Origin: a virus
Virus record (IMG/VR): IMGVR_UViG_3300035670_000198
Location: 1 to 63,922 of that record
Strand: one strand, 5' to 3'
DNA: 63,922 bases
In this document: positions 20,120 through 39,645 of the stretch, piece after piece
How the letters are laid out: the number at the start of each line of letters is the position of its first letter
How positions within the stretch are numbered: position 1 is the stretch's first letter
Notes under the pieces: model-generated
The model's input: only the letters and a program-made list of their open reading frames with translations
What the model was told of the DNA's origin: nothing
Databases searched by the model: none
Made by a program: the position numbers and the translations under genes

Positions 20120-20866
20120 TTATGCGATAAGTGTCCCATCTCTCGAACTATAAACTTTGTCTGGATGCATATGGGCAAATTGTTCCCAGTTTGGTTCCCC
20201 TGGAAGGATTCTTCGACCCGTAGATTCTTCCCCAATATGCTCTATAATGTTCTTTCCTTGAGCGTTTTTTAGGATTGCAGAGTACATTTTCTCGAAAAAG
20301 TCGAGATAAACCATAATCATTCCTTCATTTATCGTAAACTTCCAGTATTCTCTAAATGGATAATTGATAATACTGCGGCGATAAAACGAGAAAATAATCG
20401 GAAATTGTTTCGTATTCTTGCTGTAATAATACTGTTTGATTGGAGTATCCGTTTCCTCAACCTGCGGTGGCTTCTCATGAAAATACCACTCTTGTCTCTG
20501 AAGAACGACAGACGCCATTTTAGGATCTGATTCTAGAATTTCGATCATATCATCGAGCCGAACTGGCTCTTTTAGGACAACATCGTCCTCTTGGTGAATG
20601 ATATAATCATAGTCGGTAGTCTTTAGATAATCGAAAAACTCGGTCCAAGTAACTGATAATCCTAGATTATCTTTATGTAAATTGAGTTTGAATCCGTGCG
20701 TTTTTCCGATCAGATCGAAAATATTATTGTTTCGAGTTCTTGGATAATCATCGATAATCAATCGATCGACCTGATGCCCACAATAATCTAGAAAGTGCAA
20801 TGATTCTAGACTCTTTGTAAGATACTGGAGCCGATTACAGGAAAAGATTACATGCAGGACTTTCAT
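20120..20866 (-). CDS. GT2-like (GT-A fold) glycosyltransferase
   Basis: The 248 residues open with VLHVIFSCNRLQYLTKSLESL, the nucleotide-sugar binding strand-helix of GT-A enzymes, then VDRLIIDDYP and the acidic motif HQEDDVVL (Glu93-Asp94-Asp95), which fits the DxD metal site. GEESTG near the C-terminus could supply the catalytic base. Donor and acceptor cannot be read from sequence. It is the last of four genes between the giant collagen-like fibre and gene 13, overlapping the preceding gene by one base (TGATG). Context suggests modification of virion fibre protein; modification of host surface or DNA is an alternative. Confidence 0.8.
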   Translation of the reverse strand: MKVLHVIFSCNRLQYLTKSLESLHFLDYCGHQVDRLIIDDYPRTRNNNIFDLIGKTHGFKLNLHKDNLGLSVTWTEFFDYLKTTDYDYIIHQEDDVVLKEPVRLDDMIEILESDPKMASVVLQRQEWYFHEKPPQVEETDTPIKQYYYSKNTKQFPIIFSFYRRSIINYPFREYWKFTINEGMIMVYLDFFEKMYSAILKNAQGKNIIEHIGEESTGRRILPGEPNWEQFAHMHPDKVYSSRDGTLIA

Positions 20867-21414
20867 CAGTATTCAGTATTGAAGAAGAAAGTTTGAAACA
20901 AACGACCTGAGTGTAGCGTGCTACCGAAATAATCTAACGAAGCATGAAATAGATTACCGCGATAGAGAACGAGGCGATTATACTTGTTTGCGATATAATC
21001 GGTCATTTCCCATTTGGTATAATCGTATCCCTCATAGTCTTTCCCATCTCTCTCATATTGCCCACTTGCTTTATGACGATAGAGAGCAGTTCCTGAAGAC
21101 AGCGGAGCATCAGGAGTTAGATAGCAAACACCAGCCCAAGTATTATACTGATCAGCGTGGATCCAAGTTCTATCTTGGGCGGTGCAAATTTGAAAAGCGC
21201 CAGTATATCCTGAATCTTCAAACCAATAAGTCACTTCACCGCCAGCATAACGAACGATATCGCCGATCGTCTTTTTGGTATCTTCAGTGAGGAATGGTTT
21301 CGTGCGAAGTCCAGGATAGTTTCCAGAAACTTCAAACTTCTGGCTTAGAGCAAATTCTCTGACTGTATCTGGATTGCCGTAGAAATCGTCAATGATAATG
21401 GTTTTGATCTTCAT
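20866..21414 (-). CDS. jelly-roll dioxygenase-like protein (DUF6445-type)
   Basis: From the ATG at 21414 the protein has 182 residues. A GAAGG ribosome site precedes this ATG; the longer reading frame to 21486 would overlap the gene before and is not preferred. Residues 84-88 read WIHAD, an HxD motif (His86, Asp88). LYRGNLFHAS places a distal His at 157, and Arg171 in GRLFQTFFFN could bind 2-oxoglutarate. This is the layout of Fe(II)/2-oxoglutarate oxygenases of the double-stranded beta-helix fold, and the overall sequence resembles the DUF6445 family. The substrate is unknown. It lies among glycosyltransferase genes, so hydroxylation before glycosylation is a possible role. Confidence 0.72.
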   Translation of the reverse strand: MKIKTIIIDDFYGNPDTVREFALSQKFEVSGNYPGLRTKPFLTEDTKKTIGDIVRYAGGEVTYWFEDSGYTGAFQICTAQDRTWIHADQYNTWAGVCYLTPDAPLSSGTALYRHKASGQYERDGKDYEGYDYTKWEMTDYIANKYNRLVLYRGNLFHASLDYFGSTLHSGRLFQTFFFNTEY

Positions 21415-21424
21415 GATTGCACCT

Positions 21425-22177
21425 TCAGTAAAACATAAATCTTGCGGATGTTCCGTCCCATCCAGAAACTTTCCAGTCAACTTCAATTAGTTTGTCTTTA
21501 TATGGTCTTGTGAAGTAATATGATAGCGTTTCAATATCATAATGATACATCGGTGGTTGTTTGACTAGATGTATCGTGGCTTCATTGATGTCTATAAACT
21601 TATCTAGGTGTTCTGCTCCGAAGCCATAAAGTACGGTACAGTACTGATGTAAACGATTATTATTTTGCGCTGCGCGTTGATCTACAAATGAATACTTCCA
21701 AGAATCATTCCACTCAAAGTTCAGCGGCTTCTTGAAAAAGATTTTATCTTTATTTTCTTCTGTCAATAACTTATCGTTGAAGTCATAGTAGAAATATCGA
21801 CCAGTCGCCTTGAAGATAAAGTCATATTGTTTCAACTTATCTTTATAGTTCTTATAGATAATATTCAATAGAACACTTTCGCAGAGGCTTTTGTTCTGAT
21901 GCGTATTTACAATTTCAAAACACTGAGGCGCAATTTCTTTTACAGGAATAAACTCTACGTTCTTGAAATGTAAGAACGTTGAAGCATATTCTTTGTAATT
22001 ATCCGAAGAATCAATAATGATAATCTTGGCTTTGGGGAAAGCTGAGTGGATTGAACTTACTGTGAAAATTGTTTGTCTAAATCGCTCATGTGCACCGAAG
22101 ATTGATCGCTTATCACTGTAAGTAAATCGACCATCTCTTGGTTGAATAGAAGATGTTACGACAAAAACACTATTCAT
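21425..22177 (-). CDS. putative glycosyltransferase-like protein
   Basis: The 250-residue protein begins with a strand-loop (NSVFVVTSSIQP) and continues with AKIIIIDSSDNY, a pattern like the first Rossmann strands of GT-A enzymes. YDFIFKATGRYFYYDF near residue 118 resembles the segment around the acceptor or metal site in some capsule and lipopolysaccharide transferases. No clear DxD is visible, so the assignment is tentative. It overlaps the GT4 gene by 8 bp and is followed after 10 bases by the jelly-roll dioxygenase-like gene, so it belongs to the same translationally coupled set. Confidence 0.6.
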   Translation of the reverse strand: MNSVFVVTSSIQPRDGRFTYSDKRSIFGAHERFRQTIFTVSSIHSAFPKAKIIIIDSSDNYKEYASTFLHFKNVEFIPVKEIAPQCFEIVNTHQNKSLCESVLLNIIYKNYKDKLKQYDFIFKATGRYFYYDFNDKLLTEENKDKIFFKKPLNFEWNDSWKYSFVDQRAAQNNNRLHQYCTVLYGFGAEHLDKFIDINEATIHLVKQPPMYHYDIETLSYYFTRPYKDKLIEVDWKVSGWDGTSARFMFY

Positions 22178-23171
22178 AGAAATTATTCGACGCTACTCTG
22201 AGTAGATATTGACGATGAAGTTCATGAACTTTTTCGTCTGAGAATTGTAGTCCATGTTCTCGACAATCTGCTGAACTAATCTTACCTTCTTCTAGATTCT
22301 TCAGAGCTGTTACCAATTCACTAAAACTACGAACACGATATCCAGTTTTTCCCTCATGTACGATTTCAGGGAACGCACCCCAATCCGTAGAAATGACTGG
22401 TGTGCCTGATAGATTAGCCTCAATGATCATATTGCCGAATGGCTCAACATAGTATGTCAAGCCTAACAAACCTTTGGCTTTTTTCATCAATTGTTTACGT
22501 TGTTCTGCGTCTGCTACGCCAAAGACTTCAACGTGATCTGGAATCTTATTATAACCCATGGCTTGTAAAGATCCAGGACCAGCAACAATCAATTTCTTAC
22601 CAAGTTTCTCTGTTGCTTGAATGGCAAGATGAACACCTTTCTCCTCGCAGACGCGACCGAAGTAAAGATAGTAATCTTCTTTCTGATCGTCATATTCGAA
22701 TTCTTCAATTGTAAATGGATTTGGAATCACTGCGTCGAACCAGCTTGGGCTCATCAGCATTCCGCGTTCGCCATAAAACATATGCATATTAGCATATGAT
22801 GTGAACGCTCTATATGGCGCAAAGATACCGTTAGCGCGATAACCAATTGATGGTTCTACTGGCTTACAATTTTTATTTTTCTCGCAAGCAAGTTGATTGT
22901 CTACACCAAAAAAGCAAACGATAATATCACCGTCAGATGCGCGTCGGCGAATTTCATCGCCAGCAAATTCATTGAACAAGCGAATTTCTTTTGGTAGTGT
23001 TGGGATGTCGACATGCTCGCAGTCGACTTGTGCGCCAGGAATTCCATAATGAATCATTTCGAAATGTGGCGATAGATGCTTGATGTATTTGTAGCCGTGG
23101 ACCGCAAATGGGTCAACACGATTCATCAACCCTGTTGGATTGCGCGGATTTACAAGAACATGTACTTTCAT
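22170..23171 (-). CDS. GT4-family (GT-B fold) glycosyltransferase
   Basis: The 333 residues show the GT4 hallmarks. YLYFGRVCEEKGVHLAIQA at about 168-186 is the start of the donor-binding domain, KKLIVAGPG follows, and EPFGNMIIEANLSGTPVISTDWGAFPEIV at 243-271 contains the two Glu of the EX7E motif (Glu243, Glu251). These enzymes transfer sugars from nucleotide donors with retention. It is the first gene after the 1883-residue collagen-like fibre and has its own CTAAATA promoter, so the four-gene set 22170-20120 can be transcribed as a unit. The acceptor is not evident from sequence; neighbouring fibres are the obvious candidates. Confidence 0.9.
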   Translation of the reverse strand: MKVHVLVNPRNPTGLMNRVDPFAVHGYKYIKHLSPHFEMIHYGIPGAQVDCEHVDIPTLPKEIRLFNEFAGDEIRRRASDGDIIVCFFGVDNQLACEKNKNCKPVEPSIGYRANGIFAPYRAFTSYANMHMFYGERGMLMSPSWFDAVIPNPFTIEEFEYDDQKEDYYLYFGRVCEEKGVHLAIQATEKLGKKLIVAGPGSLQAMGYNKIPDHVEVFGVADAEQRKQLMKKAKGLLGLTYYVEPFGNMIIEANLSGTPVISTDWGAFPEIVHEGKTGYRVRSFSELVTALKNLEEGKISSADCREHGLQFSDEKVHELHRQYLLRVASNNFYE

Positions 23172-23199
23172 AATATACTCACAAAAAAATAATCTATTC

Positions 23200-23206
23200 T
23201 ATTTAG
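23200..23206 (-). promoter_or_regulatory. late promoter CTAAATA for the glycosyltransferase set
   Basis: CTAAATA on the minus strand contains the TAA stop codon of the giant fibre gene and lies 28 bp before the ATG of the GT4 gene, with GTGAG between. Confidence 0.75.
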
Positions 23207-26200
23207 CGCACGTCCTTCATAGTCAACGTACCCCAATACGTCGTGCCGCCATCATAAGTGATAAATGTCCACAAGTCGCGAGCATTTGCAGCAGTTGTAG
23301 CAGGAGGAATTGCTCCACCAGCCCAATATACTGTATTCGCAAACGTTGGGAATCTACCACCAGTGCCATCATTGAGCAATAGTAGTGAGAACATTTGCGC
23401 AGTTCCAGAACTTGGAGCGTTCGTAAATGTAAACGTTGTATTGCCTGTCAATGTATGGCGGAAGTAGTTAGCGTTTGACAAGTCGACAGTATTCGCTGTT
23501 GAGGTTGATGTATTGACAACCATAAAGTCTTTACTTGACTTCAACGTTGCTGTCAAATTACCGCTCATCGTCACAGAATTGTTTGATACGTTTGCAACAA
23601 GAGTTGAAGAACCAACAGTGAATACATTTCGAGTTAGATTGAACGTTAGATTGGCTGATCCACCAGTGCTTCCATTATTGTTGAAAAACACTTGAGTGTT
23701 TGATCCACCAATTGGTCCAGTTGGTCCTTGCGGTCCAGTAACACCTTGCGGTCCTTGCGGACCAGTAACACCTTGTGGACCCTGAGGACCAGTTGATCCT
23801 GCTGGACCTTGAGGACCTGCAACGCCTTGAGGACCTTGAGGACCAGCAACACCTTGCGGTCCTTGTGGACCAGGGACATTAGAAACTCCACTTGGTCCTT
23901 GTGGACCTTGTGGTCCGAATACACCTTGAGGACCTTGTGGTCCTTGTGGTCCTTGTGGTCCTTGAGGACCAACGTCGCCCTTATCACCTGTCACAGCAAA
24001 TGTGATAACAACATTTGCATTATCCGCAAACTGAGTAGTTACACCAGAGTTGTATGCAATTGGAATGTCAAAGTGATCGTTATGATCAATGTGATTTGCG
24101 ATGATAGAGAAGAATACAAAGTTTGCACTATTGGCTTCTTCTGTGATTTTGATAGTCCCTTTGATTGAACTCGTTGAGTCGTCAATCGTTTGGATAAATG
24201 ATGCAATATTTGAATCGCTTCTATCGATCACAGAAATACTCATTGTATTTGCTAATGAGAAATTAGTGTTTTCGACAACCACATAGCCATTGGCAACATT
24301 TTCTACATCAGTATCAGTATCAAACTTGTAATAGAATGACGCGCCACCAAAGTTACCAGTCTCACCTTTTGGTCCTTGAGGACCCTGCGGACCTTGTGGA
24401 CCAACGACACCCTGAGGACCTTGCGGACCAGTTGCACCTGTTGGTCCTTGTGGACCCTCAACACCCTGTGGACCCTGTGGTCCTGTATTTCCTTGTGGAC
24501 CAGATGGACCTGTTGGACCAGAGTTTACTGCAACTTTGATTACAGCTGATGAGTTGGCAACATAATATGTTTTACCAGTTGATTCGTTATGAACAAAGCG
24601 ACCAATACCAATATCCGTCCAAATGTCTCTGCTACCACTAATAATCCATGAGCCATTGTTTAGCGTATACAAGTCACCATTTCTAATATCAAAAATATCA
24701 TTTGTATCAGAAGTGAAGCCCAACACGGTGAATGTTGAACTTGCTTGAGAATATACACTAAATCCGTATGGGCTCTCACCCTTGAACTTATCGAGAATTG
24801 GATTGCTGTCCAAATCTAGCGTTAGAGTTGTGGCAGCATCAAGAGTTGTGTTACCAAGTTGTGTTGTAACAAACGTAAATTCATTACCAGTACGAGTTGC
24901 TTGAATTGTTACACCGTCTGGATAACTTGACCAACCGCCAGTAAAGGTGACATTTGCAGAACCATCAACTAATTTTACTGCATCTGATCTGAGGTAGTTG
25001 TACCAAATTTCCCAGCCAGTGATTGTACCGCCAGTATCGCGCAAGGCAGACAATGTATACTCGCGTCCAGTGTCTGGATCAACATACCAACCAACAAGAA
25101 TACCGATTGTGTCATTGTCAGCATTAGTTGATGCAAGTTTTGCCGTCAACGTATAGTCTGAATATGATTCTGGTGAAACAAATCCAAGATAAGTTCCGCT
25201 ATTTGTGGTGCTAGTGATGACGCCAGTATTTGCATCAAATGACCATGCGCTCAATTCACCAGAATTCGCTGGTTGATTTTCAGTAGCGTCGTGAGAGAAT
25301 CTTGTCCAAGTATTGAAGATCGTTGCATAATCTGTCAAAGTATTTTGAGCAGCACTCAATTCACCATTTGTTTCAATGAAGTATCCTTTGACAAGAGTAT
25401 AATCATTTTCTCTTTCGTAAGTTGCCGTGTTCGCCAAGAAAGATACTTGACCCTCAAGACCAACTGGTGCAACATTAGCAAGTTGTTGACCGTCAAGCAA
25501 GTCAGCATCAAGAGTAGACAAATGACCATCATTGCCAGCATGCCATACAGTATTACGATTGATCATCACACCATTGGCGCTGACGACATCAAAGTTGATT
25601 CTGTCATCAGCATCATTTGTCATGGTGAACGTCATTTCTGTCGCTTCACCACCAAGTGGATTCAATAACTTGATTGTTGCAGTATCGCTGCCACCACCAA
25701 ATGCGTCATTAGGGAATCTAATACCACCATTTGCTCCTGAAGCAACATTCAAGCTGCTTACATTTGCGTTATGAGTGCTGAAGAGTCTTGCCGTTGAGTC
25801 AAATGTAAGATCAGTACATCCAACTGCCGTCATGCTGCTATTATAAATGATTTGTTTGTCAGCGCCAGCAACAGGACCTGTTGGACCTTGTGGACCCAAC
25901 TCACCAGTTGAGCCGATTGCGCCTTGAGGACCCTGAGGACCTTGAGGACCTTCAACTCCCTGCGGACCTTGTGGACCCTGTGGACCTTGCGGACCATCAA
26001 CACCCTGTGGTCCTTGAGGACCCTCTGGTCCTTGTGGTCCTTGTGGACCAAATAATCCTTGTGGACCTTGAGGTCCTTGTGGACCAAACACACCTTGCGG
26101 ACCTTGAGGACCAAACAAGCCTTGTGGACCTTGTGGACCTTCTGGACCCTGTGGACCTTGTGGACCCTCAGCGCCTTGTGGACCCTGAGGACCATCAACG

Positions 26201-28854
26201 CCTTGCGGACCTTGTGGACCAACACTACCCCTATCGCCAGTTCTGCCAAATGAAACTAGAATTGCTTGATCGTTTACAAATGAACTTGAAGAACCAGTGA
26301 TGTGCGTTACATCAATCTCATAGTATCCAGTTAGATCAGTGAGATCATTGATGTTATAAAGTTCAAATGTACCAGCATTTGTCTTATCAAAGATTTTCAA
26401 ATAACCTTTGATTGTACTTGTACTATCATCAAATGCTGTCAAGAAGGTTAGAATATTTGAACCATCAGCATCAACGTTGTCAATATAAACTTTGGTTGTA
26501 AGTGTTGGAACAACATTATTGAACTTGAGTTTACCAACACCAGGGTCAGTACTTGTAACTTCATCATTGAATTCATAAGCAAAACTGATTCCACCATATG
26601 CGCCTTGCACACCTGATGGACCTGATGGACCCATTGGTCCTTGAGGACCTTGTGGTCCACGTGCACCAATCGCACCTTGTGGACCCTGTGGACCTTGTGG
26701 ACCAACTTCACCAGTAACACCTTGCGGACCTTGTGGTCCAGTTTCGCCTTGTGCTCCCTGCGGACCTTGTGGACCCTGTGGACCCTGTGGACCTTGAGGA
26801 CCTTGTGGACCAAACACGCCTTGTGGACCTTGTGGACCAACAATTAGACCAGCATCAACCCATTGTACAAGATCATCGTTATAGACATAAAGATGTCCAA
26901 TGCTTGTTACAACATAAGCGTCAGCATCATTTGCTGAGCCAGGAAGATCAGTAACATCAATTACTGTACCAAGTACATTGATGCCACCACCAGGAACACC
27001 CTGTGGACCTTGCGGACCTTCTGGACCCTGTGGACCTTGTGGTCCGAATACACCTTGAGGACCTTGTGGTCCTTGTGGTCCAACTACACCTTGTGGTCCT
27101 TGCGGACCATCAACACCTTGCGGACCTTGCGGACCTTGTGGACCAATGAATGGACCAGCATCAACCCAAACAGCTGGATGCGGACAATCGTCCCAAACAT
27201 ATAGATGACCGTCAGCGATTACAATATATGCATCGCCAGCAGTTTGGTCAGTAATTGAATTGATTAGAATTTCATAAGTTGGTACAGTGCCAACAAGACG
27301 AATGCCAGCGCCAGGAATACCTTGAGCACCACTTGGTCCTTGTGGACCTTGCGGACCAATTGCACCTTGAGCGCCACTTGGTCCTTGTGGACCTTGTGGT
27401 CCTGTGAAACCACGATCACCTTTGACGCCTTGTGGACCTTGCGGACCTGTTGGTCCACGTGAACCTTGTGGACCACGACGACCTGTTGTAGCAGTAACTT
27501 CCCAAGTCATACCGTTGTAAATGAATTCAACAGTAACGCCTCGGAGATCAAGTCTTACAATTTGATCGCTACCTTCAATGGTATTATCTAATGATTGGAT
27601 GAAGAGATTATTTGCGCCCCAATCATCACCGTCAGTAACTTGAACATAGCCACCAAGAACTGGAGTGTTTGGTAGTGTGATTGTGAATGGACCATTGACT
27701 GTTGTGTTAGCAACAATACGATCGCCATCAACTGCTGTGTAATCCAATGAGTGAACTGACCAGTGTTGTAGCGCACCGCTTGCACCTTGTGGACCTGTTG
27801 GACCAGCAACACCTTGCGGACCACGTGGACCAGCAACACCTTGAATACCTGATGGACCTGTTGGTCCCTGTGGACCAGATGGACCAGAAGCACCAACTAA
27901 ACCTTGCGGACCAGTAGGACCCTGTGGACCAGCAAAACCTCGAGGACCAGATGGACCTTGTGGACCAATGTCACCTTGCGCACCTTGAGGACCAGCAACG
28001 CCAGATGGACCTTGCGGACCAGCAACACCACGTGGACCCGTTGCACCAGATGGACCAGCCTCACCTTGTTCACCTTGCGCGCCCGACGGACCAGATGGAC
28101 CAGTAGGACCAACAGCACCAGTTGCGCCAGATGGACCTTGTGGACCACGCGCACCGCTTGGACCAGATGGACCTTGTGGACCTTCATCACCAACAGCACC
28201 AGATGGACCAATAGGACCTTGAGGACCTGCAGCACCAACCAAACCACGTGGACCTGAAGGACCTGATGGTCCAGCAAAACCTTGAAGACCTTGTGCACCT
28301 GATGGACCTTCTGGACCCTGTGGACCAGCAACACCTTGAGGACCTGATGGACCTTGAGGACCAGCAACACCACGTGGACCGCTTACGCCTTGCGGACCTT
28401 GTGGACCAGCATCACCCTTTACGCCTTGTGGACCAGAAGGACCTGATGGTCCAGATGGACCTTGCGCGCCAGCAACACCTTGTGGACCGCGAGCGCCTGC
28501 AGGACCACTTGGACCCTGTGGACCAATCTCGCCCTGAGCACCTTGTGGACCAGATGGTCCTGTGGGACCGCGACTACCAACAGGACCAGATGGACCAGAT
28601 GGACCAGAAGCACCGCGAGGACCAGAAGGACCAGAGACACCTTGTGGTCCTTGAGGACCAGCAGCACCTGAAGGACCTTGTGGACCGCCTGACGGACCTG
28701 TAGGACCGAGTCCACCTTGAGGACCTGATGGACCTTGTGGTCCTTGAGGACCAGCAGGACCACCTGCGCCGCGACCAGTTGAAACTTTTACAACTGGTTT
28801 TTGAGTTGAAACTTTGATTGTCTGGCCAATAGCCGTGCTGACATTCGCTGACAT
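23203..28854 (-). CDS. giant collagen-like tail fibre protein
   Basis: The 1883 residues are the largest product in the window. After about 28 residues, a long Gly-Pro-x tract runs to near 360. Then come a beta domain (about 361-455), more collagen tracts separated by two similar small domains (each ending near [12 protein letters not shown]), and a YGGISF module. A long region around 1000-1450 contains a [15 protein letters not shown] fibre motif and a LamG-like stretch, followed by a second module ([10 protein letters not shown]), more collagen, and a C-terminal 120-residue domain shared with the 402-aa fibre gene at 39652. It is expected to form a long trimeric rod and is probably a tail or head fibre contacting the host. 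Many Pro residues make it a possible substrate for the neighbouring oxygenases and glycosyltransferases. Confidence 0.9.
23705..28775 (-). repeat. Gly-Pro-x coding repeat tracts of the giant fibre
   Basis: Tracts of 9-bp units lie at about 23705-23980, 24355-24530, 25870-26235, 26600-26850, 26995-27150, 27315-27485 and 27780-28775. The N-terminal tract (27780-28775) uses many GPS, GPR and GVA triplets, while the later tracts are nearly uniform GPQ, suggesting different ages or expansion histories. Confidence 0.9.
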
Positions 28855-28855
28855 A

Positions 28856-29191: not shown

Positions 29192-29215
29192 TTAGGATTC
29201 CCCATTTTATTTTCT

Positions 29216-29223: not shown

Positions 29224-29248
29224 AAACGAGGAATCCACTTCTGCAAGA

Positions 29249-30788: not shown

Positions 30789-30789
30789 A

Positions 30790-31392
30790 TCAATGAGTCC
30801 TCTCGCCCATAACCCAGCATACTAACGATTTACGAACACCAGAGGTGACAGGCGCAACACGATGTGGCATAAATGAAGAGAAGAAAATAACTTCACCACG
30901 TTTTGGTTTTAGGACTAGTGGTTCGTTGACTCTGCCATGTGGAACTAATTGAAACTCACCACCGCCATAATCATCTGGATCAGTGAGCATGATACTAGCA
31001 CTAATTTTACGAATGTAATTGGTACTGCCAATGTCCATGTCCATGTGCCAATCATAATGTTGTTTTGTTCTGGCTTTATAGACGGTATACTGAAAATTAT
31101 CGAAACCGTCAATATTATACATGAAGTGGTCGTAATTTACTTGAGAAAGCAAACCACCAAATTTTTGAAAAATCCAGTCTGAGTTTTGATCGTGCATAAG
31201 CCACATGATATCACTATCGCGCGCTTTTTTATTCACGGATCCTGTGCTTGTGGTGCCACCGATCTGACCTCGTTGAAACTTTTGTAAGTCTTCAAGATCA
31301 ATAATCTTGTCGCATTCTTCGTCGGTGAATATTTGGTTTGTGATGCAATACTGATCTAGTTTTTTTGCATACCTTTGCACTTTGAATGGCAT
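30790..31392 (-). CDS. 2-oxoglutarate/Fe(II) oxygenase, prolyl-hydroxylase-like
   Basis: The 200 residues form a complete oxygenase of the prolyl-4-hydroxylase/PiuC-like type. The iron ligands are His116 and Asp118 in YDWHMDMD and His177 in FMPHRVAPVTSG, and Arg187 in GVRKSL would hold 2-oxoglutarate. ISASIMLTDPDDYGGGEFQL is the characteristic core strand. GGAG precedes the ATG, and a CTAAATA promoter overlaps the stop of the Tyr-Asn repeat fibre before it. The substrate is unknown; candidates are Pro or Asn in the adjacent fibres. Such oxygenases are frequent in cyanophages, where other roles are also proposed. Confidence 0.92.
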   Translation of the reverse strand: MPFKVQRYAKKLDQYCITNQIFTDEECDKIIDLEDLQKFQRGQIGGTTSTGSVNKKARDSDIMWLMHDQNSDWIFQKFGGLLSQVNYDHFMYNIDGFDNFQYTVYKARTKQHYDWHMDMDIGSTNYIRKISASIMLTDPDDYGGGEFQLVPHGRVNEPLVLKPKRGEVIFFSSFMPHRVAPVTSGVRKSLVCWVMGERTH

Positions 31393-31429
31393 AACAACTC
31401 CACATTTTGCAGAATAAACAATTATACTA

Positions 31430-31436
31430 TATTTAG
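31430..31436 (-). promoter_or_regulatory. late promoter CTAAATA for the oxygenase unit
   Basis: CTAAATA on the minus strand contains the TAA stop of the 884-aa fibre and lies 37 bp before the oxygenase ATG. Confidence 0.75.
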
Positions 31437-34087
31437 TCGATCTTTACAACTATTTGACCGCCTGTAGGTACAACTACTGGGTAGTTGGCAGAGTCAGGAT
31501 ACACATATGTATCTACTGGTGTTGGTGGAACATATGGTGCTGGTTCTCCAGCATTGTATCCTGCAATATTTCCTGGAGCATTATAGTTTGCGCTTGCGCC
31601 AGCACCACCTGGGAAATAAACACCAAGAACATTTGTTGGGCTTCCTGCTGTACCAAGAATTGGTGGGTTATACGTTGCAGGATTGCCAGCATTATATGAT
31701 GCGGCTGTATTACCTGAATAAGTTGCTACGTTTCTTGGATTATAAGTTGCAGGATTACCAGCATTGTATGAAGCAATATTATTGCCAGTAAATGTTGCAG
31801 GTGAAGGTGGATTATAACTTGCTGGATTGCCAGCGTTGTAATTAGCAAGATTGTTGCCAGTATAAGTTGCAGGATTTCCAGCATTGTATGAAGCAGCGCT
31901 GCCAGCATTATAATTGGCAAGAGTGTTTCCTGAATAAGAAGCAATGCTTCCAGGATTGTAAGATGCGACATTTCCTGCGTTATATCCAGAAACATTGTTG
32001 CCAGTATAACTTGCAGCAGAGCCAGCATTATACACAGCAGACCCAGGATTATATGCTGCTATGTTTCTTGGATTATACGTCGCTGTTGTGCCAGCGTTGT
32101 AGTTAGCGTTGTTGCCAACATAACCAGAAATATTTGTTGGATTATATGATGCTGGTGATCCAGAATTATAATTTGCTGATCCAGGATTATAACCAGAAAC
32201 GTTTCTTGGATTATATGAAGCAACAGTTCCAGGATTATAGTTTGCACTATTGCCAGAATATCCAGAAACATTGTTGCCAGTATAAGAAGCAGGTGAACCT
32301 GTGTTGTAATTAGCAGAACCTGGATTATAATTTGCTACTGTCGGTGGATTGTATGAAGCAACAGTTCCAGGATTATAGTTAGCAGATCCAGGATTATAGT
32401 TTGCTACTGTTGGTGGGTTGTAACTTGCTGGAGTTCCAGCATTGTAATTCGCTGATCCTGGATTATAGCTGGCAACATTTCTTGGATTATAAGTTGCAAC
32501 TGTTCCAGCGTTATAGTTTGCTGTACCTGGATTGTAATTCGCAATAGTTCTTGGATTATAAGTTGCTACAGTACCAGCATTATAGTTCGCAGTTCCTGTG
32601 TTATAATTTGCCACTGTTGGTGGGTTATATGACGCTGGGTTTCCAGGATTATAATTTGCTACACCTGGATTGTATCCGCCAGTCGCGTTTCCAGGTGATC
32701 CTGGAATTGATGAGTAATAAATGTAGACATACAAATTGATTGCTTCGTGCGGACCTGCTGCTGGATTACCATATGCATCGGTTGGGGCTGGAGCTGGTCC
32801 TGATCCAGATTGCGGATAATATTGAAATCCAATTTGAACAGGATCTTCATAGAAGAAATAATCAAATCCAAAATCATGAACATAGAATGTTCCAAACCAG
32901 TTTGTTGCTGTCGGTGGATTATATACTTGAGTGTTGCTAGAATAGCCAGCAATGTTTCTTGTATTATAAGTTGCGGGATTTCCAGGAGTAAAGTTGGCGT
33001 TGTTACCAGAATATCCAGCAACGTTTCTTGGATTATAAGTCGCCGCCGTTCCAGGATTATAGTTTGCTGTGTTACCAGAATACCCAGCAACGTTTCTTGG
33101 ATTATATGTTGCTGCAGTGCCAGGATTGTAATTTGCAGTATTTCCTGAGTATCCTGCTACGTTGCGAGGATTATATGATGCTGGATTGCCTGGAGTGAAG
33201 TTGGCATTGTTACCAGAATATCCAGCAACGTTACGAGGATTATATGTTGCAGCGTTTCCTGGAGTAAAGTTGGCGTTGTTACCAGAATATCCAGAAACAT
33301 TTGTAGGATTATAACTTGCTGGAGAACCAGTATTGTAGTTAGCCGAGCCAGGATTATAACCAGAAACGTTTCGCGGATTATATGATGCTACATTGCCCGC
33401 ATTATAATTTGCACTATTCCCAGAATATCCAGCAATATTGTTGCCAGTATAAGATGCTGGAGAACCTGTGTTATATGTCGCGCTTCCCGCGTTATATCCT
33501 GCTACGTTTCTTGGATTGTAAGTAGCAGGAGTGCCAGCATTATAGTTGGCATTGTTGCCAGTAAATCCAGAAACGTTTGTCGGATTATATGATGCGATGT
33601 TACCAGTGTTATAACCAGCAACGTTGCGAGGATTGTAACTGGCAATATTATTGCCAGAATAAGACGCTGCGCTTCCTGAGTTATAATTTGCATTGTTGCC
33701 ACTATATGAGGCGACATTGTTGCCAGAATAGGAAGCAGGATTCCCAGAATTATAGTTGGCATTGTTGCCAGTATAAGATGCTGGGACTGGCGGATTGTAA
33801 CTTGCTGGGTTGCCAGCGTTATAGGTCGCAGCATTATTGCCAGAATAAGATGCCGTGGTTCCAGCGTTATATGTTGCAGGGCTACCTGAATTGTAGGTTG
33901 CTGCGCTGTTTCCTGTATATGTGGCTGGTGTTCCTGGAGTTGCGTTAGTACCTGTGCCTGCGCGTCCAGAGACTGAAGCATTGAATCGACCGTATGGGAT
34001 CGTTATGCTGGATGTATTATTGAAAGTGGTTGTGTTTCGAAATGCCGAACCGATCCAGCTTTTCAACAGGTCTGTGTGTATGGGCAT
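31433..34087 (-). CDS. Tyr-Asn repeat fibre protein (complete architecture)
   Basis: The 884 residues have four parts. An N-terminal anchor of about 50 residues ends in IPYGRFNASVSGRAGTG. A very long array of 7-8-residue units follows, with consensus Y-N-(P/A/T)-G-(N/S/T)-x-A, for example YNPGTVAS and YSGNNAN. A non-repetitive island lies near residues 391-465 (WFGTFYV, DPVQIGFQYYP, NPAAGPHEAI). The C-terminal cap contains LGVYFPGG and ends VPTGGQIVVKID. Almost no charged residues occur in the array apart from the Arg of YNPRNVA units. The regular Tyr spacing suggests a stacked beta-solenoid or amyloid-like rod, and I know no named family for it. Tandem CTAAATA/GTAAATA promoters precede it and an oxygenase gene follows it. 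A virion fibre role is inferred from the neighbours. Confidence 0.8.
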   Translation of the reverse strand: MPIHTDLLKSWIGSAFRNTTTFNNTSSITIPYGRFNASVSGRAGTGTNATPGTPATYTGNSAATYNSGSPATYNAGTTASYSGNNAATYNAGNPASYNPPVPASYTGNNANYNSGNPASYSGNNVASYSGNNANYNSGSAASYSGNNIASYNPRNVAGYNTGNIASYNPTNVSGFTGNNANYNAGTPATYNPRNVAGYNAGSATYNTGSPASYTGNNIAGYSGNSANYNAGNVASYNPRNVSGYNPGSANYNTGSPASYNPTNVSGYSGNNANFTPGNAATYNPRNVAGYSGNNANFTPGNPASYNPRNVAGYSGNTANYNPGTAATYNPRNVAGYSGNTANYNPGTAATYNPRNVAGYSGNNANFTPGNPATYNTRNIAGYSSNTQVYNPPTATNWFGTFYVHDFGFDYFFYEDPVQIGFQYYPQSGSGPAPAPTDAYGNPAAGPHEAINLYVYIYYSSIPGSPGNATGGYNPGVANYNPGNPASYNPPTVANYNTGTANYNAGTVATYNPRTIANYNPGTANYNAGTVATYNPRNVASYNPGSANYNAGTPASYNPPTVANYNPGSANYNPGTVASYNPPTVANYNPGSANYNTGSPASYTGNNVSGYSGNSANYNPGTVASYNPRNVSGYNPGSANYNSGSPASYNPTNISGYVGNNANYNAGTTATYNPRNIAAYNPGSAVYNAGSAASYTGNNVSGYNAGNVASYNPGSIASYSGNTLANYNAGSAASYNAGNPATYTGNNLANYNAGNPASYNPPSPATFTGNNIASYNAGNPATYNPRNVATYSGNTAASYNAGNPATYNPPILGTAGSPTNVLGVYFPGGAGASANYNAPGNIAGYNAGEPAPYVPPTPVDTYVYPDSANYPVVVPTGGQIVVKID
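31545..33960 (-). repeat. Tyr-Asn 21-24 bp coding repeats of the 884-aa protein
   Basis: Roughly a hundred units of 21 or 24 bp encode the YNxGNxA-type peptide. The array is broken once, at about 32685-32915. Subfamilies (YNPRNVA, YSGNNAN, YNPGSAN, YNAGNPA) alternate in higher-order blocks of 3-4 units, pointing to block duplication. Confidence 0.9.
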
Positions 34088-34115
34088 CTATACCAAAATC
34101 CATTGCTAGTTTGGA

Positions 34116-34129
34116 TATTTAGTATTTAC
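34116..34129 (-). promoter_or_regulatory. tandem late promoter words GTAAATA-CTAAATA before the 884-aa fibre
   Basis: Two adjacent words on the minus strand (GTAAATA at 34123-34129, CTAAATA at 34116-34122) lie between the GlcNAc-transferase-like gene and the fibre ATG at 34087. Confidence 0.7.
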
Positions 34130-34133
34130 CGAA

Positions 34134-35096
34134 TCAATCGTATCGATCAGGAATTTCCCAGTCATTGACCACATCTGGAGGGAGAAGAATACTCCTCGAG
34201 ATGGCTCTATTTTCCAGTTTTCGATTGATATAATCGACGCCAGAATACTTACGATATTCTTCGAAGAACTCGTCGCTGAAACTATCCAAGAAATTGCGAA
34301 ATTCTTTTCTAGATTTTTCTCGATTTCTATTGAGTTGTTCGTGCGAGACAACCTGATTCACATCTTGTTTAGTGATATATCGGTGTGTATCTGTCAAGTG
34401 ATAGCAATGAATTCTTCTTGGAGCGCAAAGTTTATATCCAGCCGCAAATGAAGCCAGCGTCATATATTGTTCTTCGCCCTCAAAGAAAATGCGAGGATTC
34501 ATCCCAACGTTTCTCAACCAATCACTATGTGTGAAGAAGTTTCCAGCAAATAAGTGAATGGTTGGGTGTAGATGATCTTGTGTCGCTTCTCGAAACTCTC
34601 CGTGAGCGCCAAGAATATAATTCTCATGGAAAGACCAATATCCTGCTTTGACAGTAATATTGCCATGACGATCAAGGAATGGCGTTCCATCCTCTTGCAT
34701 TCTAAATGAACCACAATTCGCGTCAATGATGATTCGATCAGTTTGATGCTGTTGCATTCCAAGTTTGAAATCATTGATCAAATAGCGATCCCAATTCTTA
34801 TCAAAAAGCATATGAGAGTCTACTTGATAGTAGAACTCTTCATCATCGAGTTGAATCGAATTTAGATGTCTTGCCCAACCAACGCCATCTGAGAATTTGG
34901 CATCAATTCTTTTATATCGAACATTTTTATTTTGAGCAAGATCTGGATATTTGGCTTCTAGGCTATCAGCATAGTCAGTTTGTTCAAAGACGCCATAAGT
35001 TATTTTTGTCAGTTGAGATTGCATCTCCATCATATTGCGTAGAGTTTGGTGGAGAAGCGGATCTCTATATGAGACGATACTGACAAAAATTTTCAT
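34134..35096 (-). CDS. glycosyltransferase of the Skp1-hydroxyproline GlcNAc-transferase type
   Basis: From the ATG at 35096 the protein has 320 residues. The start is chosen because GAGGGG lies 6 bases upstream and the ATG overlaps the previous stop (TAATG); the upstream TTG is not needed. It matches the GlcNAc family (PF11397) pattern: KIFVSIVSYRDPLLHQTLRNM at the N-terminus, GVFEQTD, then GVGWARHLN and EEFYYQVDSHMLFDKNWD with the DSH motif at 93-95 in place of DxD, and FFEGEEQYMTLASFAAGYKL further on. The eukaryotic founder adds GlcNAc to a hydroxyproline made by a prolyl hydroxylase. Here the gene is coupled to an oxygenase homologue and flanked by repeat fibres. Donor and acceptor are inferred from family only. 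Confidence 0.85.
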   Translation of the reverse strand: MKIFVSIVSYRDPLLHQTLRNMMEMQSQLTKITYGVFEQTDYADSLEAKYPDLAQNKNVRYKRIDAKFSDGVGWARHLNSIQLDDEEFYYQVDSHMLFDKNWDRYLINDFKLGMQQHQTDRIIIDANCGSFRMQEDGTPFLDRHGNITVKAGYWSFHENYILGAHGEFREATQDHLHPTIHLFAGNFFTHSDWLRNVGMNPRIFFEGEEQYMTLASFAAGYKLCAPRRIHCYHLTDTHRYITKQDVNQVVSHEQLNRNREKSRKEFRNFLDSFSDEFFEEYRKYSGVDYINRKLENRAISRSILLPPDVVNDWEIPDRYD

Positions 35097-35659
35097 TAGC
35101 AACCCCTCTTACCCATTACCCATACGTTCAATGACTTTCTCGTTCCAGAAGTGATTGGTACGATTCTTGACGGCATCCATGGAGCATAAAATACTACGCT
35201 ACCAAGATTTGGTTTGATTGGCATGACTTCATTCGGATCGCCAGTATTCATGATCTCAATTTCACCCCCCAAATATTCTTCTGGGTCAGTAAGCATAATC
35301 GATGCGCAGATCTTTCGTTCCCAATTTAGAAACGCGAAGTCAACATCGTAATGCCAACCATATTCTTGATTCTTTTTATATTTGGCATATTGAAATGCAT
35401 CGAAGCCGTCGATATCATACATGAAGAAATCGATATTGATACGACCAATAAGTCCAGAAAACTTATCAAAAAGCCACTGAGTGTCTTGATTTGGCGGTAG
35501 GACTGCTAGATCTGCTTGATTCTTGCCATTTGTTTGTTCTTTAGAAAACATAAGTTTCTTTTCTAAAGAAGTTACTTTATCGACTTCTTCTTGCGTCAGA
35601 AAGTCTGAAACAACAGCAAATTTAGAGAGGATACGATTGTATTTGACAACTTGAGGCAT
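35096..35659 (-). CDS. 2OG/Fe(II) oxygenase homologue lacking the distal His
   Basis: From the ATG at 35659 the protein has 187 residues; GGAG lies 6 bases upstream, and an in-frame GTG four codons earlier is not preferred. It is a clear paralogue of the oxygenase at 30790-31392 along its whole length. HxD is kept (His103, Asp105 in GWHYDVD), as is the 2-oxoglutarate Arg174 in GTRKSL. The distal iron ligand is replaced: the paralogue's MPHRVAPVTSG reads MPSRIVPITSG here (Ser164, codon TCA). It may be an inactive partner subunit, use another ligand, or catalyse different chemistry. Its stop overlaps the start of the GlcNAc-transferase-like gene, so the two are translationally coupled. Confidence 0.88.
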   Translation of the reverse strand: MPQVVKYNRILSKFAVVSDFLTQEEVDKVTSLEKKLMFSKEQTNGKNQADLAVLPPNQDTQWLFDKFSGLIGRINIDFFMYDIDGFDAFQYAKYKKNQEYGWHYDVDFAFLNWERKICASIMLTDPEEYLGGEIEIMNTGDPNEVMPIKPNLGSVVFYAPWMPSRIVPITSGTRKSLNVWVMGKRGC

Positions 35660-35695
35660 AACGAACTCCACTATTCATGATCAACTATTATAACC

Positions 35696-35702
35696 TATTT
35701 AT
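35696..35702 (-). promoter_or_regulatory. late promoter ATAAATA for the oxygenase-GlcNAc-transferase pair
   Basis: ATAAATA on the minus strand includes the TAA stop of the 538-aa Tyr-Asn repeat gene and lies 36 bp before the chosen oxygenase ATG. Confidence 0.75.
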
Positions 35703-37315
35703 TCGATTCTTACAACTATTTGTCCACCTGATGGAACTTCAATTGCGTGATTTCGATAATCAATTTCTTGGTTCTCAAAGTAATAACTAATCTCTTGCTC
35801 ATTGACATAAACGCCAGGAGCGCAAACACCACCACCTGGGAAGTAAACACCAAACGCATATCCAGGTTCTCCAGGAGTTCCTGGGATTGGGAAGTTATAA
35901 GTGCTTGCACTTCCTGGATTATACGTTGCTACAAAGTTTCCAGTGTAACTTGCAATATTGTTGCCAGTATATGTTGCTGGATTACCAGAGTTATAACCAG
36001 AAACAAAGTTAGAAGTGTAAGACGCTGGGTTGCCAATATTATATGATGGAGGTGGTGCTGGATTGTATCCACTAATTGTGTTGCCAGTATATGTTGCTGG
36101 GCTACCAGAATTGTAGTTGGCATTGTTGCCAGTATATCCACTGATCGTATTTCCAGAGAAACCGCCCACAAACGTTTCATTATATGTTGCTGGACTTCCA
36201 GCGTTATAATTGGCATTATTTCCAGTATATGCACCAATTACATTTCCAGAGAAACCACCAACAAACGTTGGATTGTATGTGGCTGGATTACCTTCATTGT
36301 ATGTTGCTGGATTGCCGCCAGGGGCAAATCCAGCAGAGAAGTTTCCTGTGTAATTTCCAGCATTACCTGTATTATAATTTACATTGTTGCCTGAATAGTT
36401 ACCAACAGTAGAAGGATTATAGTTTGCTATGTTACCAATATAATCCGCAACGTTTCCTGGATTATAGTTGGCAGGTGGGCTTGCTGATGGCGTACACTCG
36501 TAATTGGTAACTGTATATTCAATAATTTCTGGAGTTCCAGGAGGTGGACCATAAAAACTTGTTGGAGTTGGGCAGCTTGGATCGCTTCCGCTTCCATAAT
36601 AAGTGCCGCTACCAATTGGGCTACCATCAAACGCAAATACGATTGAATAATTTGTAGTAGAGTTCCAAGTCACACCACCAGCAGCAGGATTATACCCTGC
36701 AACACTTGTTGGGTTATAACCTGAAATGTTTGTTGGGTTGTATGTAGCAACATTTCTTGGGTTGTATGATGCAATGTTTCCAGGAACATAGAAAGCATTT
36801 CCTGGAGTAAATTCTAGAGGATTATACCCAGTGATTGTTGGTTCATTATATGTCGCAGGATTACCGCCAGAAAGAACTGGATTGTATGTTGCATTGTTAC
36901 CAATGTAACCATCTAACGTGCCAGCATTATATTCAGCAGTTGCAGTTCCAGAAGTTCCAGGCTCATTACTTATTACACTGTATGTAATATAAATGTTTTG
37001 ACCAATAGCCTCATGCGGACCTGCTGCTGGATTGGCGTAAACATTTACTGGATCAGGCAGCGTGGGCGTTGTCAAAAATTGAGGATAGTATTGAAATCCA
37101 ATTTGTACTGGATCATCGAAGAAAAACTCAAGCTGTCCATTGTCATTACTAAAAAATGATGCGCTCCAATACACCAATCCACCGCCTGATGGTGGATTAT
37201 ATACCTGCACGTTTCCAGTATACGAAGCAACACCTTCGTTATAACCTGCAAGATTTCCTCCAGTACTTGGATTATATGTCGCAGGATTTCCTGGTTCGTA
37301 GATAGCAGTAGACAT
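35699..37315 (-). CDS. Tyr-Asn repeat protein without N-terminal anchor
   Basis: The 538 residues start directly in the repeat (IYEPGNPATYNPSTGGNLAGYNEG) and lack the YGR...VSGRxGxG anchor found in the other two Tyr-Asn proteins. They contain two non-repetitive islands: one near residues 48-120 matching the 884-aa protein's (DPVQIGFQYYP, NPAAGPHEAI) and another around 215-280 with three Cys-containing strands. The protein ends with LGVYFPGG-like (FGVYFPGGG) and VPSGGQIVVRIE cap motifs. Its ATG overlaps the stop of the Hint-tailed gene by one base (TAATG). Together the pair has the parts of one complete fibre, so the two products probably act together. Confidence 0.8.
   Translation of the reverse strand: MSTAIYEPGNPATYNPSTGGNLAGYNEGVASYTGNVQVYNPPSGGGLVYWSASFFSNDNGQLEFFFDDPVQIGFQYYPQFLTTPTLPDPVNVYANPAAGPHEAIGQNIYITYSVISNEPGTSGTATAEYNAGTLDGYIGNNATYNPVLSGGNPATYNEPTITGYNPLEFTPGNAFYVPGNIASYNPRNVATYNPTNISGYNPTSVAGYNPAAGGVTWNSTTNYSIVFAFDGSPIGSGTYYGSGSDPSCPTPTSFYGPPPGTPEIIEYTVTNYECTPSASPPANYNPGNVADYIGNIANYNPSTVGNYSGNNVNYNTGNAGNYTGNFSAGFAPGGNPATYNEGNPATYNPTFVGGFSGNVIGAYTGNNANYNAGSPATYNETFVGGFSGNTISGYTGNNANYNSGSPATYTGNTISGYNPAPPPSYNIGNPASYTSNFVSGYNSGNPATYTGNNIASYTGNFVATYNPGSASTYNFPIPGTPGEPGYAFGVYFPGGGVCAPGVYVNEQEISYYFENQEIDYRNHAIEVPSGGQIVVRIE
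35890..37290 (-). repeat. Tyr-Asn coding repeats of the 538-aa protein
   Basis: 21-24 bp units of the YNPGNPA/YTGNNIA type fill most of the gene between and around two non-repeat islands (about 36960-37170 and 36480-36670). Confidence 0.85.
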
Positions 37316-39645
37316 TAGTAAGTTAGAACCCCATTAGCATAGAAATTTGGGCTAGACTTATACTTATTATTGAATGTATAGACCGTATATGGATAGTTGA
37401 TTGAAACAATCGCATTGATTCGAACTGCGTTGCCATTCTTATCAACAAAACTATCGCCCACTTGTACCTTCGCCACATCACCCAAAGATCTATATCCTTG
37501 CATTGTCAAGTTTGGATTCATAGAAGCATAACCCTTTCCAATGACGAAGAATGGGTGATCATCAGACGCTCTGACAGAAATGCTATTTTCTAGAATGTAT
37601 TCAAACATCACTCTGTTCACGCGAGTGATAATCTCTGAAACTTCGTTTGTTTCATGCTCGCCTGTATCTGGGTTATACGACAAGATTTGATCACCAACTT
37701 GAATTGTTTCAATTGCCTTGGTTGAACCATCAGCCATTGAGATGAGCGTGTCACCAGCAAAGCAGCAACCACCGCCACCAATTGGTGTTGGCTCATTATA
37801 ACCACCAATTGTTGGTTCGTTATACGTCGCCACTGTGCCTTCGTTGTATGTTGCAGCAGTGCCTTCGTTGTATAGTGCAGTTCCTGCGTTATAAACCTCA
37901 GTGCTTCCACTTGGATTATATCCTGAAATAGTATTTCCAGTGTAACTTCCTACTGTGCCTGGATTATAATTTGCGATATTTCCAGCAACATAATTTGCAA
38001 TTGAGCCTTCGTTATAAATTCCTGTGGCGTTATTGCTGATGTAATTAGCAATGGTTCCCTCATTATAAATTTGTGCACCAGGAGTATTGAATGTTGCGGT
38101 AAAGTTTCCAGTATAAGTTGCAGGATTACCTGTATTATAATCCGCAATTCCTGGATTATACACAGCATTACCGCTATTGTATCCAGCAACACTAGTTGGA
38201 TTATATGTTGCTGGACTTCCAGTATTATAATCACCAACCCCTGTATTGTACAACGCATTACCGCTATTGTAGCCACCAATATTGGTTGGAGTGAATGACG
38301 CTGGATTGCCAGTATTATAGTTTGGATCAGCAGATCCAGGTGGATTATATCCAGAAATTGTAGCAAAGGAGCAGTCAGTGAATGGAGTGCCTGGAGTAAA
38401 TACTGCTGAATTGCCAACAAAGCTGTTTATATTACCAGCATTATAGATAGCAGTGCCTTGATTATAATTGGCATTATTATCTGCATAAGTAATTGCATTA
38501 CCAGCAGTAAATCCTGAAGGGTTGCCAGTATTATAATTCGCATTGTTTCCAGTATATCCACCAATGATATTGCCACCATAAGTGGCTGGTGTTCCAACAT
38601 TATATGCGCTTGCTGTTCCTGGATTATATCCAGAAATATTTGTTGCATTATAACTGCTTGGATTGCCAGTATTATAGTTTGCACTGTTGCCAGTATATGT
38701 TGCAGGATTTCCTGGAACTGCTGGAGAGCAATCGTAGTAGATGATATAAGAATAAACTTGTGCTCCACCACCAACCACGAATCCTGGGAAATTTGGAAAA
38801 TTGCTTGGTGTTACAACAGTCGTTGAGTCTCTCAGAGGACATCCAACAGAAGTCCCCGTACCCTCAAAGGCGAGTTGCTCATAATAGAAATAATCTTCGT
38901 CGAAAATTGTTTCAATAATAACACCATACCAGTTTACAGTGGCTGGATTATATGTGAGTGGACTACCTGCGTTATATCCTGAAATTGTATTACCAGTAAA
39001 CCCAACAGGATTGCCAGTATTATAATTCGCATTATTGCCTGAATAAGCAGAGATACTATTTGAACCGTTGACATATGTTGCAGGATTTCCTGGAGTATAC
39101 GTCGCAGTTCCAGTATTATATCCATTGATATTTCTTACATTATAACCACCAGGTGTAGCGGCATTATAAGTTGTGCCGACACCAACGTTATAACCTGCAA
39201 CATTTGTTGCGTTATATCCAGAAATGTTGCCAGCATTATATTGAGCGCCACCTGCGCTTCCTGAGTTATATCCTGTTATGACTGCTGGGTTGAATCCAGT
39301 CCCACAAGGATTATAGATTGCGTTGTTACCACCACTAGCTGGAATTTCAGTATTTCCAGTATATGACGCAGGATTACCAAAATTATAATTAGCACTGTTA
39401 CCAGTATATGAGGCAGTGAATCCTGGATTATATGTTGCAGCAACGCCAGAGTTATATGAGGCTGCGCTGTTGCCAGTGTAAGTTGCAATGTTTCCAGGAA
39501 CTGGACAGTTACCTGATCCACCACGACCTGAAACGTAAAGACGATTTCGACCATATGGAACAAACATATTTCCATATGTGTTGAATACAGTGGAACCGCG
39601 TGTAGCGGTCCATGTTTTTTCTAATTCATCAATACGCTTTGGCAT
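37315..39645 (-). CDS. Tyr-Asn repeat fibre protein with C-terminal Hint (hedgehog/intein) domain
   Basis: The 776 residues comprise an N-terminal anchor (VPYGRNRLYVSGRGGSG near 29-45), a Tyr-Asn repeat array to about residue 615 with one non-repeat island near 235-310, a Gly linker, and a Hint domain from Cys627 to the end. Hint features are CCFAGDTLISMADGSTKAIE with the candidate nucleophile Cys627/Cys628, VGDQILSYNPDTGE, the block-B-like ASDDHPFFV with His697, and a closing NGVLTY. The usual terminal His-Asn of inteins is absent, so full splicing is unlikely, but an N-S acyl shift with cleavage or ligation at the Cys is possible, as in hedgehog or bacterial intein-like proteins. The Hint domain stands where the other Tyr-Asn proteins have their cap. 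Confidence 0.85.
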   Translation of the reverse strand: MPKRIDELEKTWTATRGSTVFNTYGNMFVPYGRNRLYVSGRGGSGNCPVPGNIATYTGNSAASYNSGVAATYNPGFTASYTGNSANYNFGNPASYTGNTEIPASGGNNAIYNPCGTGFNPAVITGYNSGSAGGAQYNAGNISGYNATNVAGYNVGVGTTYNAATPGGYNVRNINGYNTGTATYTPGNPATYVNGSNSISAYSGNNANYNTGNPVGFTGNTISGYNAGSPLTYNPATVNWYGVIIETIFDEDYFYYEQLAFEGTGTSVGCPLRDSTTVVTPSNFPNFPGFVVGGGAQVYSYIIYYDCSPAVPGNPATYTGNSANYNTGNPSSYNATNISGYNPGTASAYNVGTPATYGGNIIGGYTGNNANYNTGNPSGFTAGNAITYADNNANYNQGTAIYNAGNINSFVGNSAVFTPGTPFTDCSFATISGYNPPGSADPNYNTGNPASFTPTNIGGYNSGNALYNTGVGDYNTGSPATYNPTSVAGYNSGNAVYNPGIADYNTGNPATYTGNFTATFNTPGAQIYNEGTIANYISNNATGIYNEGSIANYVAGNIANYNPGTVGSYTGNTISGYNPSGSTEVYNAGTALYNEGTAATYNEGTVATYNEPTIGGYNEPTPIGGGGCCFAGDTLISMADGSTKAIETIQVGDQILSYNPDTGEHETNEVSEIITRVNRVMFEYILENSISVRASDDHPFFVIGKGYASMNPNLTMQGYRSLGDVAKVQVGDSFVDKNGNAVRINAIVSINYPYTVYTFNNKYKSSPNFYANGVLTY
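37318..37767 (-). other. Hint (hedgehog/intein-type autoprocessing) domain
   Basis: The 150 codons from the Cys-Cys pair to the stop codon encode the Hint module of the 776-aa fibre. It has Cys at the N-terminal junction, a DHP block-B motif at residues 70-72 of the domain, and no homing endonuclease insert. The domain ends immediately before the TAATG junction to the next fibre gene. Confidence 0.85.
37790..39490 (-). repeat. Tyr-Asn coding repeats of the 776-aa protein
   Basis: 21-24 bp units encode YNTGNPA, YNPGTAx and YTGNSAN variants, interrupted by one non-repeat island at about 38705-38945. The last units before the Hint domain are YNEGTVA and YNEPTIG types with Glu, unlike the rest of the array. 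Confidence 0.85.

Follow-up and report, generated by a model that had tools for sequence, protein, structure and literature searches.

A conserved oxygenase and GT60 glycosyltransferase gene set linked to Tyr-Asn repeat fibres in T4-like phages

A genome fragment from a freshwater T4-like phage, IMG/VR record IMGVR_UViG_3300035670_000198 (63,922 nucleotides, the whole of which is referred to here as the window), encodes in its fibre region a 2-oxoglutarate (2OG)/Fe(II) oxygenase, a GT60-type glycosyltransferase (GT), and two proteins of dUTPase-like fold (A and B), which recur as a set behind one family of Tyr-Asn repeat fibres in uncultured phages. We consider it probable, with reasonable rather than strong confidence, that the phage uses this dedicated set to modify its own Tyr-Asn fibres. 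The basis for this is the identity of the genes, their folds and active-site motifs, and the conserved linkage to the fibres. Major head, portal, tail sheath, terminase, and baseplate genes are present in the 63.9-kb record, and identify the interval 20120–39645 as the fibre region; among the isolates listed, the nearest relatives of the tail sheath are from a Stenotrophomonas phage (56%) and pelagiphages (53%). The set is located between baseplate and neck genes, in a region of the host-recognition type. All open reading frames named in the initial annotation of the window were recovered at the same positions on the minus strand (Table 1).

The GT at 34134–35096 matches family PF11397 (E 4.4e-30, 105.8 bits, cut-off 21), as do all 34 aligned relatives from phages and bacteria. 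Invariant in this alignment are D93-x-H95 (DSH in the window), E208 and E209 in a GEE motif, and a late histidine, H233; we take the D-x-H residues to be metal ligands, by analogy with GT27. A sequence-based search of solved structures found none for the GT, and the AlphaFold2 model (predicted local distance difference test, pLDDT, 95) has the GT-A fold of polypeptide N-acetylhexosamine (HexNAc) transferases. The nearest solved structures are polypeptide N-acetylgalactosamine (GalNAc) transferases (Foldseek E 2e-11), and superposition on GalNAc-T2 gives a Z-score of 23.0 and a root-mean-square deviation of 3.1 for 255 aligned residues. The initial annotation had described this gene as a transferase of the type that adds N-acetylglucosamine (GlcNAc) to hydroxyproline of Skp1, and had proposed a structure comparison as a check; because the model and the PF11397 match both place the protein inside the family, the possibility that its fold lies outside can be set aside. 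The phage GT shares its fold and the type of DxH metal motif with the GT27 polypeptide GalNAc-transferases, the acceptors of which are proteins, but differs from these in being a single-domain protein of 320 amino acids (aa) that lacks the C-terminal lectin domain. Family GT60 includes the protist polypeptide α-GlcNAc-transferases related to GT27, some members of which start mucin-type glycosylation (PMC8724618).

A profile search with the GT retrieved 80 loci, and 83 GT-bearing loci form 48 clusters at 95% identity. Outside the clade of the window, 23 independent clusters, with GT identities as low as 38%, have the order oxygenase, A, B, and GT60 on one strand, mostly with overlapping genes; the oxygenase starts 2.03–2.28 kb before the GT. 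One further GT cluster ends at a contig end, and five clusters, including the window, have the altered order fibre, ox1, GT, fibre, ox2, A, and B. In all 19 clusters where the upstream DNA suffices, the long gene preceding the set encodes a member of a single fibre family, with exceptions in detail: the fibre of locus L062 has diverged, and in L048 it is found three genes upstream, with two small genes between. The L048 gene at 7111–7842, situated between oxygenase and Tyr-Asn fibre, appears by eye to be sulfotransferase-like, hinting at an additional decoration step. Members of the fibre family have conserved N-terminal (IPYGR...GRGG) and C-terminal (LGV.FPGG...YPVTVP.GG) parts that flank very different repeats. 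When the search was reversed, using the fibre C-terminal domain alone, 27 of 27 loci were found to carry the oxygenase, A, and B, four of them on contigs that the GT search had missed. Neither the GT nor B is encoded in any record of the phage collection searched. The set is absent from every more distant phage GT60 cluster (207 bits or less), with a weak A-like gene in the vicinity in one of them, L091. Two tandem GT60-like genes and no oxygenase/A/B set are seen in other phages (L079–L085, L087, L088, L092, and L093).

The pairing extends to bacteria, where a PF13640 oxygenase gene precedes GT60 by about 70–100 bp on the same strand in three of 19 GT60-bearing genomes; as the three loci come from alphaproteobacteria that are related to each other, they amount to one or two events. 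The clusters around these pairs contain additional transferases and another oxygenase-like gene. In the alphaproteobacterial clusters L111, L113, and L114, GT60 is accompanied by other transferases, by two 2OG-oxygenase-like genes, and by a product that by eye resembles a fucosyltransferase. A 4365-bp contig (L094) from a Chitinophagaceae metagenome-assembled genome in GTDB carries solely the oxygenase, A, B, GT60, and the small protein S, and is probably either a misbinned phage contig or a hint at the host. The initial observation that oxygenase and GT60 families are interspersed with repeat fibres thus describes a link that is conserved far beyond chance and recurs in alphaproteobacteria.

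The window has two oxygenase homologues of the prolyl 4-hydroxylase (P4H)/PKHD-like type. For ox2, the initial description as a second, complete oxygenase holds: in addition to the PF13640 match (E 1.8e-15), H116, D118, the distal histidine, and R187 are all present in the alignment of 32 cassette oxygenases. The HxD motif and the 2OG-binding arginine are invariant in this alignment, and the distal histidine is found in all but the five ox1 proteins. The best match of the family profile is to the PKHD-type PiuC, followed by chlorella virus P4H and PHD2 chains. The ox1 gene ends at 35096 in a TAATG that overlaps the GT start codon and is closely preceded by AAGAGGGG. The coupling to the GT and the PF13640 homology noted initially are therefore correct, but ox1 has MPSR where MPHR is expected, and the distal Fe-ligand histidine is replaced by serine or alanine in all five clade members, with HxD and the 2OG arginine retained. 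Thus, ox1 is a PF13640 homologue that lacks the HxD...H Fe triad of an active member. The ratio of non-synonymous to synonymous substitution rates (dN/dS) is 0.07–0.13 over the five contigs, which shows purifying selection and led us to reject the notion of ox1 as decayed junk. Because the distal histidine is lost while selection persists, ox1 is probably a retained, non-catalytic homologue, i.e., a pseudoenzyme or a subunit. In the oxygenase tree, ox1 clusters with the lineage of L009/L022 (91/97), ox2 with that of L027/L045 (86/92). Since the two belong to different lineages, the arrangement in the window suggests a merger of two sets, and a simple tandem duplication is disfavoured, with moderate tree support.

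The conserved set that holds the oxygenase and GT60 also includes genes A and B, which were overlooked in the initial annotation. The A model (pLDDT 82) has only dUTPases as top structural matches (Z 10–11; 10.9). B is a divergent paralogue, and the families align with an hhalign E of 5e-14 (probability 98); a dUTPase-like fold is assigned to B through its homology to A alone. Neither protein matches the dUTPase family in Pfam at E ≤ 1, and A instead matches DUF6065, for which a literature search returned no paper naming it. Homologues of A (31–36% identity), annotated as hypothetical, are present in haloarchaeal tailed viruses, including Halorubrum phage HF2 (L115, 8911–9795) and about 50 related viruses, with no evident set around them.

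Within the interval, there are three Tyr-Asn repeat proteins and one collagen-like protein of 1883 aa. The Tyr-Asn (YN) dipeptide occurs 64 times in the 884-aa fibre (19 expected) and 24 times in the 538-aa fibre (7.6 expected). Among 28 candidate fibre proteins picked by position only, YN is the sole dipeptide that is frequent in every one, with a minimum of 2.0% and a 10th percentile of 3.0%, against 1.25% for the next dipeptide. The fibre proline content varies from 4% (L048, repeat SYNAQNVA) to 19%, with one fibre nearly devoid of proline, and proline occurs within six residues of 31–100% of the YN sites, depending on the fibre. Hydroxyproline as a certain product is accordingly not supported, YN being the only universal feature. 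The fraction of YN sites with lysine within six residues is 0–0.16, mostly 0, and because lysine is nearly absent there, modification of the hydroxylysine type is unlikely and was rejected. From the sequences, Pro, Asn, and Tyr are possible hydroxylated residues, and Ser/Thr, which is found within six residues of nearly all YN sites, close to chance expectation, could be a direct sugar acceptor. The YN dipeptide itself may be merely structural.

In the mechanism that we propose, ox2 would hydroxylate side chains of the repeats in the host cytoplasm, perhaps with ox1 as a non-catalytic partner, and GT60, with UDP-GlcNAc or a related UDP-HexNAc as donor, would add a sugar to the hydroxylated side chain or directly to Ser/Thr in those repeats. 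The A/B pair may be an obligate accessory for substrate binding or nucleotide handling. Fibres produced in this way would bear numerous small glycans, and their solubility, stiffness, protease resistance, or receptor binding could change as a result. Here we infer the fibre as substrate, the order of the steps, the sugar, and the residue. The initial annotation had also proposed that the fibres are hydroxylated and then glycosylated; the conserved enzyme–fibre set sustains the general idea, but proline as the target, the connection to collagen, and ox1 as the enzyme are not supported as proposed. A more far-reaching version, which we regard as possible but doubtful, is that a four-protein assembly (2OG oxygenase, two dUTPase-fold proteins, and GT60), widespread in uncultured T4-like phages, equips every Tyr-Asn repeat with a new type of glycan, perhaps attached to hydroxylated Asn, Tyr, or Pro, with ox1 as a dead partner kept in one clade after the merger of sets.

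Several points weigh against fibre modification by the set. The case is made from genes, folds, motifs, and linkage, and the linkage might instead stem from a host-receptor module. In the window, an Fe ligand is missing from the oxygenase that is coupled to the GT. Pro, Asn, and Tyr are all candidate sites of hydroxylation, and the proposal does not account for the role of A and B, which are always in the set. Furthermore, the set is missing within 10 kb in one phage group (L063–L065) with a GT60 that is 38% identical, and most bacterial GT60 genes have no PF13640 gene nearby.

If the target of the set is instead a host surface molecule, either lipopolysaccharide (LPS) or a surface protein, and its alteration serves to prevent superinfection or to change the receptor, fibre and set would be kept together by their common relation to that receptor. 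The glycosyltransferases in the host-recognition cluster of pelagimyophages have been read as LPS modifiers (PMC7029224), and the set in the window occupies an equivalent region. We nevertheless find this explanation unlikely, as GT60/PF11397 and the closest solved folds act on polypeptides, a P4H/PKHD-like oxygenase would be unusual as an LPS enzyme, and the genes of the set overlap and lie directly behind the fibre gene in dozens of contigs. A different division of labour, where GT60 glycosylates fibre Ser/Thr directly, as in protist mucin-type glycosylation, and the oxygenases act separately, e.g., hydroxylating Asn, Tyr, or Pro for stability, would agree with the mucin-type initiators in GT60 (PMC8724618), with the near-chance presence of Ser/Thr around the YN sites, and with the degenerate state of the GT-coupled ox1. 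However, the oxygenase is never missing from the set, and oxygenase–GT60 pairs recur in bacteria, which favours sequential action; we judge separate action to be quite unlikely. That the oxygenases regulate host metabolism (2-oxoglutarate, nitrogen), with the neighbouring transferases as unrelated cargo of a hypervariable region, is a standing proposal for cyanophage 2OG oxygenases, given as untested (PMC9602691), but is very improbable here considering the rigid gene order over 23 clusters and the reverse linkage of 27 of 27 loci to one fibre family.

The collagen-like fibre is the first gene of a second block (collagen fibre, GT4, U250, DUF6445 oxygenase, and GT2), the order of which recurs across about 20 loci, with some of them truncated by contig ends. 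The third dioxygenase-like protein reported initially after the collagen fibre corresponds to the DUF6445 protein, where H87, D89, H158, and R172 (HxD...H...R) are invariant in 10 sequences, including cyanophages. Of the three transferases thought to follow the collagen gene, GT4 is firm and GT2 weak, while U250 has no convincing Pfam or PHROG match. In the freshwater cyanophage record DSL-LC02, a DUF6445 homologue likewise occurs alongside a collagen-like gene and a mannosyltransferase. Because of this grouping and the recurring order of the block, each of the two fibre types appears to have its own oxygenase and transferases, and the block may likewise modify the collagen-like fibre. Proline occupies the X position in 172 of 270 Gly-X-Y triplets and is not among the common Y residues, in line with the caveat given initially, so that the collagen would be a poor substrate for an animal-type P4H; as main GT60 substrate it was rejected as first choice. 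The GT60 set tracks the Tyr-Asn fibre, not the collagen fibre, and G002, a 108-kb partial record, has the set with no collagen match. Two further collagen-like tail proteins of 934 and 389 aa are encoded outside the interval (13386–17361).

In most relatives, synteny places the small protein S after the set. A Hint-like (intein/hedgehog-type) domain (residues ~626–776, starting CCFAGDTLI) forms the end of the 776-aa Tyr-Asn fibre; it is present in L017, L018, and L020 and replaced by a poly-Pro/Gly tail in L019, and suggests self-cleavage or cross-linking of this fibre.

Table 1. Features of the fibre region, in window coordinates
Feature	Coordinates	Strand	Evidence
GT60-type polypeptide HexNAc-transferase (PF11397), ATG at 35096	34134–35096	−	Family match, model, invariant motifs
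ox1, P4H/PKHD-like 2OG oxygenase homologue without distal Fe-ligand His	35096–35671	−	PF13640 E 7e-11
ox2, complete P4H/PKHD-like 2OG/Fe(II) oxygenase (HMD...H...R)	30790–31392	−	PF13640 E 1.8e-15
A, DUF6065/phrog_7084 protein, dUTPase (beta-clip) fold	30042–30788	−	DUF6065 E 1.9e-9; phrog_7084 E 3e-43
B, divergent paralogue of A	29249–30055	−	phrog_7084 E 1e-13
S, small LtfC-like/phrog_1084 protein	28856–29191	−	phrog_1084 E 4e-25; synteny
Tyr-Asn repeat fibre, 884 aa, period 7–8, probable substrate	31433–34087	−	YN count; N- and C-terminal domains common to cassette fibres of other phages
Tyr-Asn repeat fibre, 538 aa, probable substrate	35699–37315	−	YN count; same C-terminal domain as 884-aa fibre
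Tyr-Asn repeat fibre, 776 aa, Hint-like domain at end	37315–39645	−	Repeat statistics; weak Hint-family matches from residue ~626
Collagen-like fibre, 1883 aa, first gene of second block	23203–28854	−	PF01391 E 3e-104
Group-1 (GT4-like) glycosyltransferase	22170–23171	−	PF00534 E 1.6e-18; synteny in about 20 loci
U250, conserved in collagen block	21425–22177	−	Synteny
DUF6445 2OG-oxygenase-like protein, start likely ATG at 21414	20866–21486	−	DUF6445 E 2.6e-14; weak PF13759
Weak GT2-like transferase	20120–20866	−	PF00535 E 7e-4, below cut-off; synteny

The closest functional analogues of the phage set are the Skp1 pathway of protists and the collagen modification of mimivirus. In Dictyostelium, Toxoplasma, and Pythium, the prolyl 4-hydroxylase PhyA acts first on Skp1, followed by a GT60 GlcNAc-transferase, and a dual-function P4H/GlcNAc-transferase of Pythium is mentioned by citation in the same source (PMC8724618). 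The pairing of a P4H-type 2OG oxygenase with GT60 and the protein substrate, cytoplasmic in the Skp1 case, would be shared with the phage set, whereas the Skp1 pathway modifies one hydroxyproline and the phage has repeat fibres as candidates and A and B always present. Mimivirus encodes both hydroxylation and glycosylation of collagen, by L230 and R699 (PMC9546862). The virus-encoded modification of collagen-like proteins is the common feature, but mimivirus uses a lysyl hydroxylase and glucosyltransferases of other families on lysine; the Tyr-Asn fibres, nearly free of lysine near YN, do not offer the site of an L230-type enzyme. The 2OG-Fe(II) oxygenases of cyanophages (PF13640/PF13759) are from the same families and also from T4-like phages. 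T4-like phages infecting water bacteria often carry such oxygenases, whose function is described as not yet investigated (PMC9602691). The cyanophage enzymes have no assigned substrate, whereas one oxygenase in the window is tied to a fibre family and to GT60. No paper describing fibre hydroxylation in a phage was found in the open-access literature.

For one phage 2OG oxygenase gene, there is now a definite candidate substrate, along with a definite partner enzyme and membership of a conserved set. If the proposed pathway is correct, phages would carry a cytoplasmic, eukaryote-like route of hydroxylation followed by glycosylation for their own fibres. Particle decoration of this kind would be new for a phage and would suggest a possible purpose of phage 2OG oxygenases; it would also be relevant to how GT60/P4H pairs arose, to receptor binding, and to particle stability.

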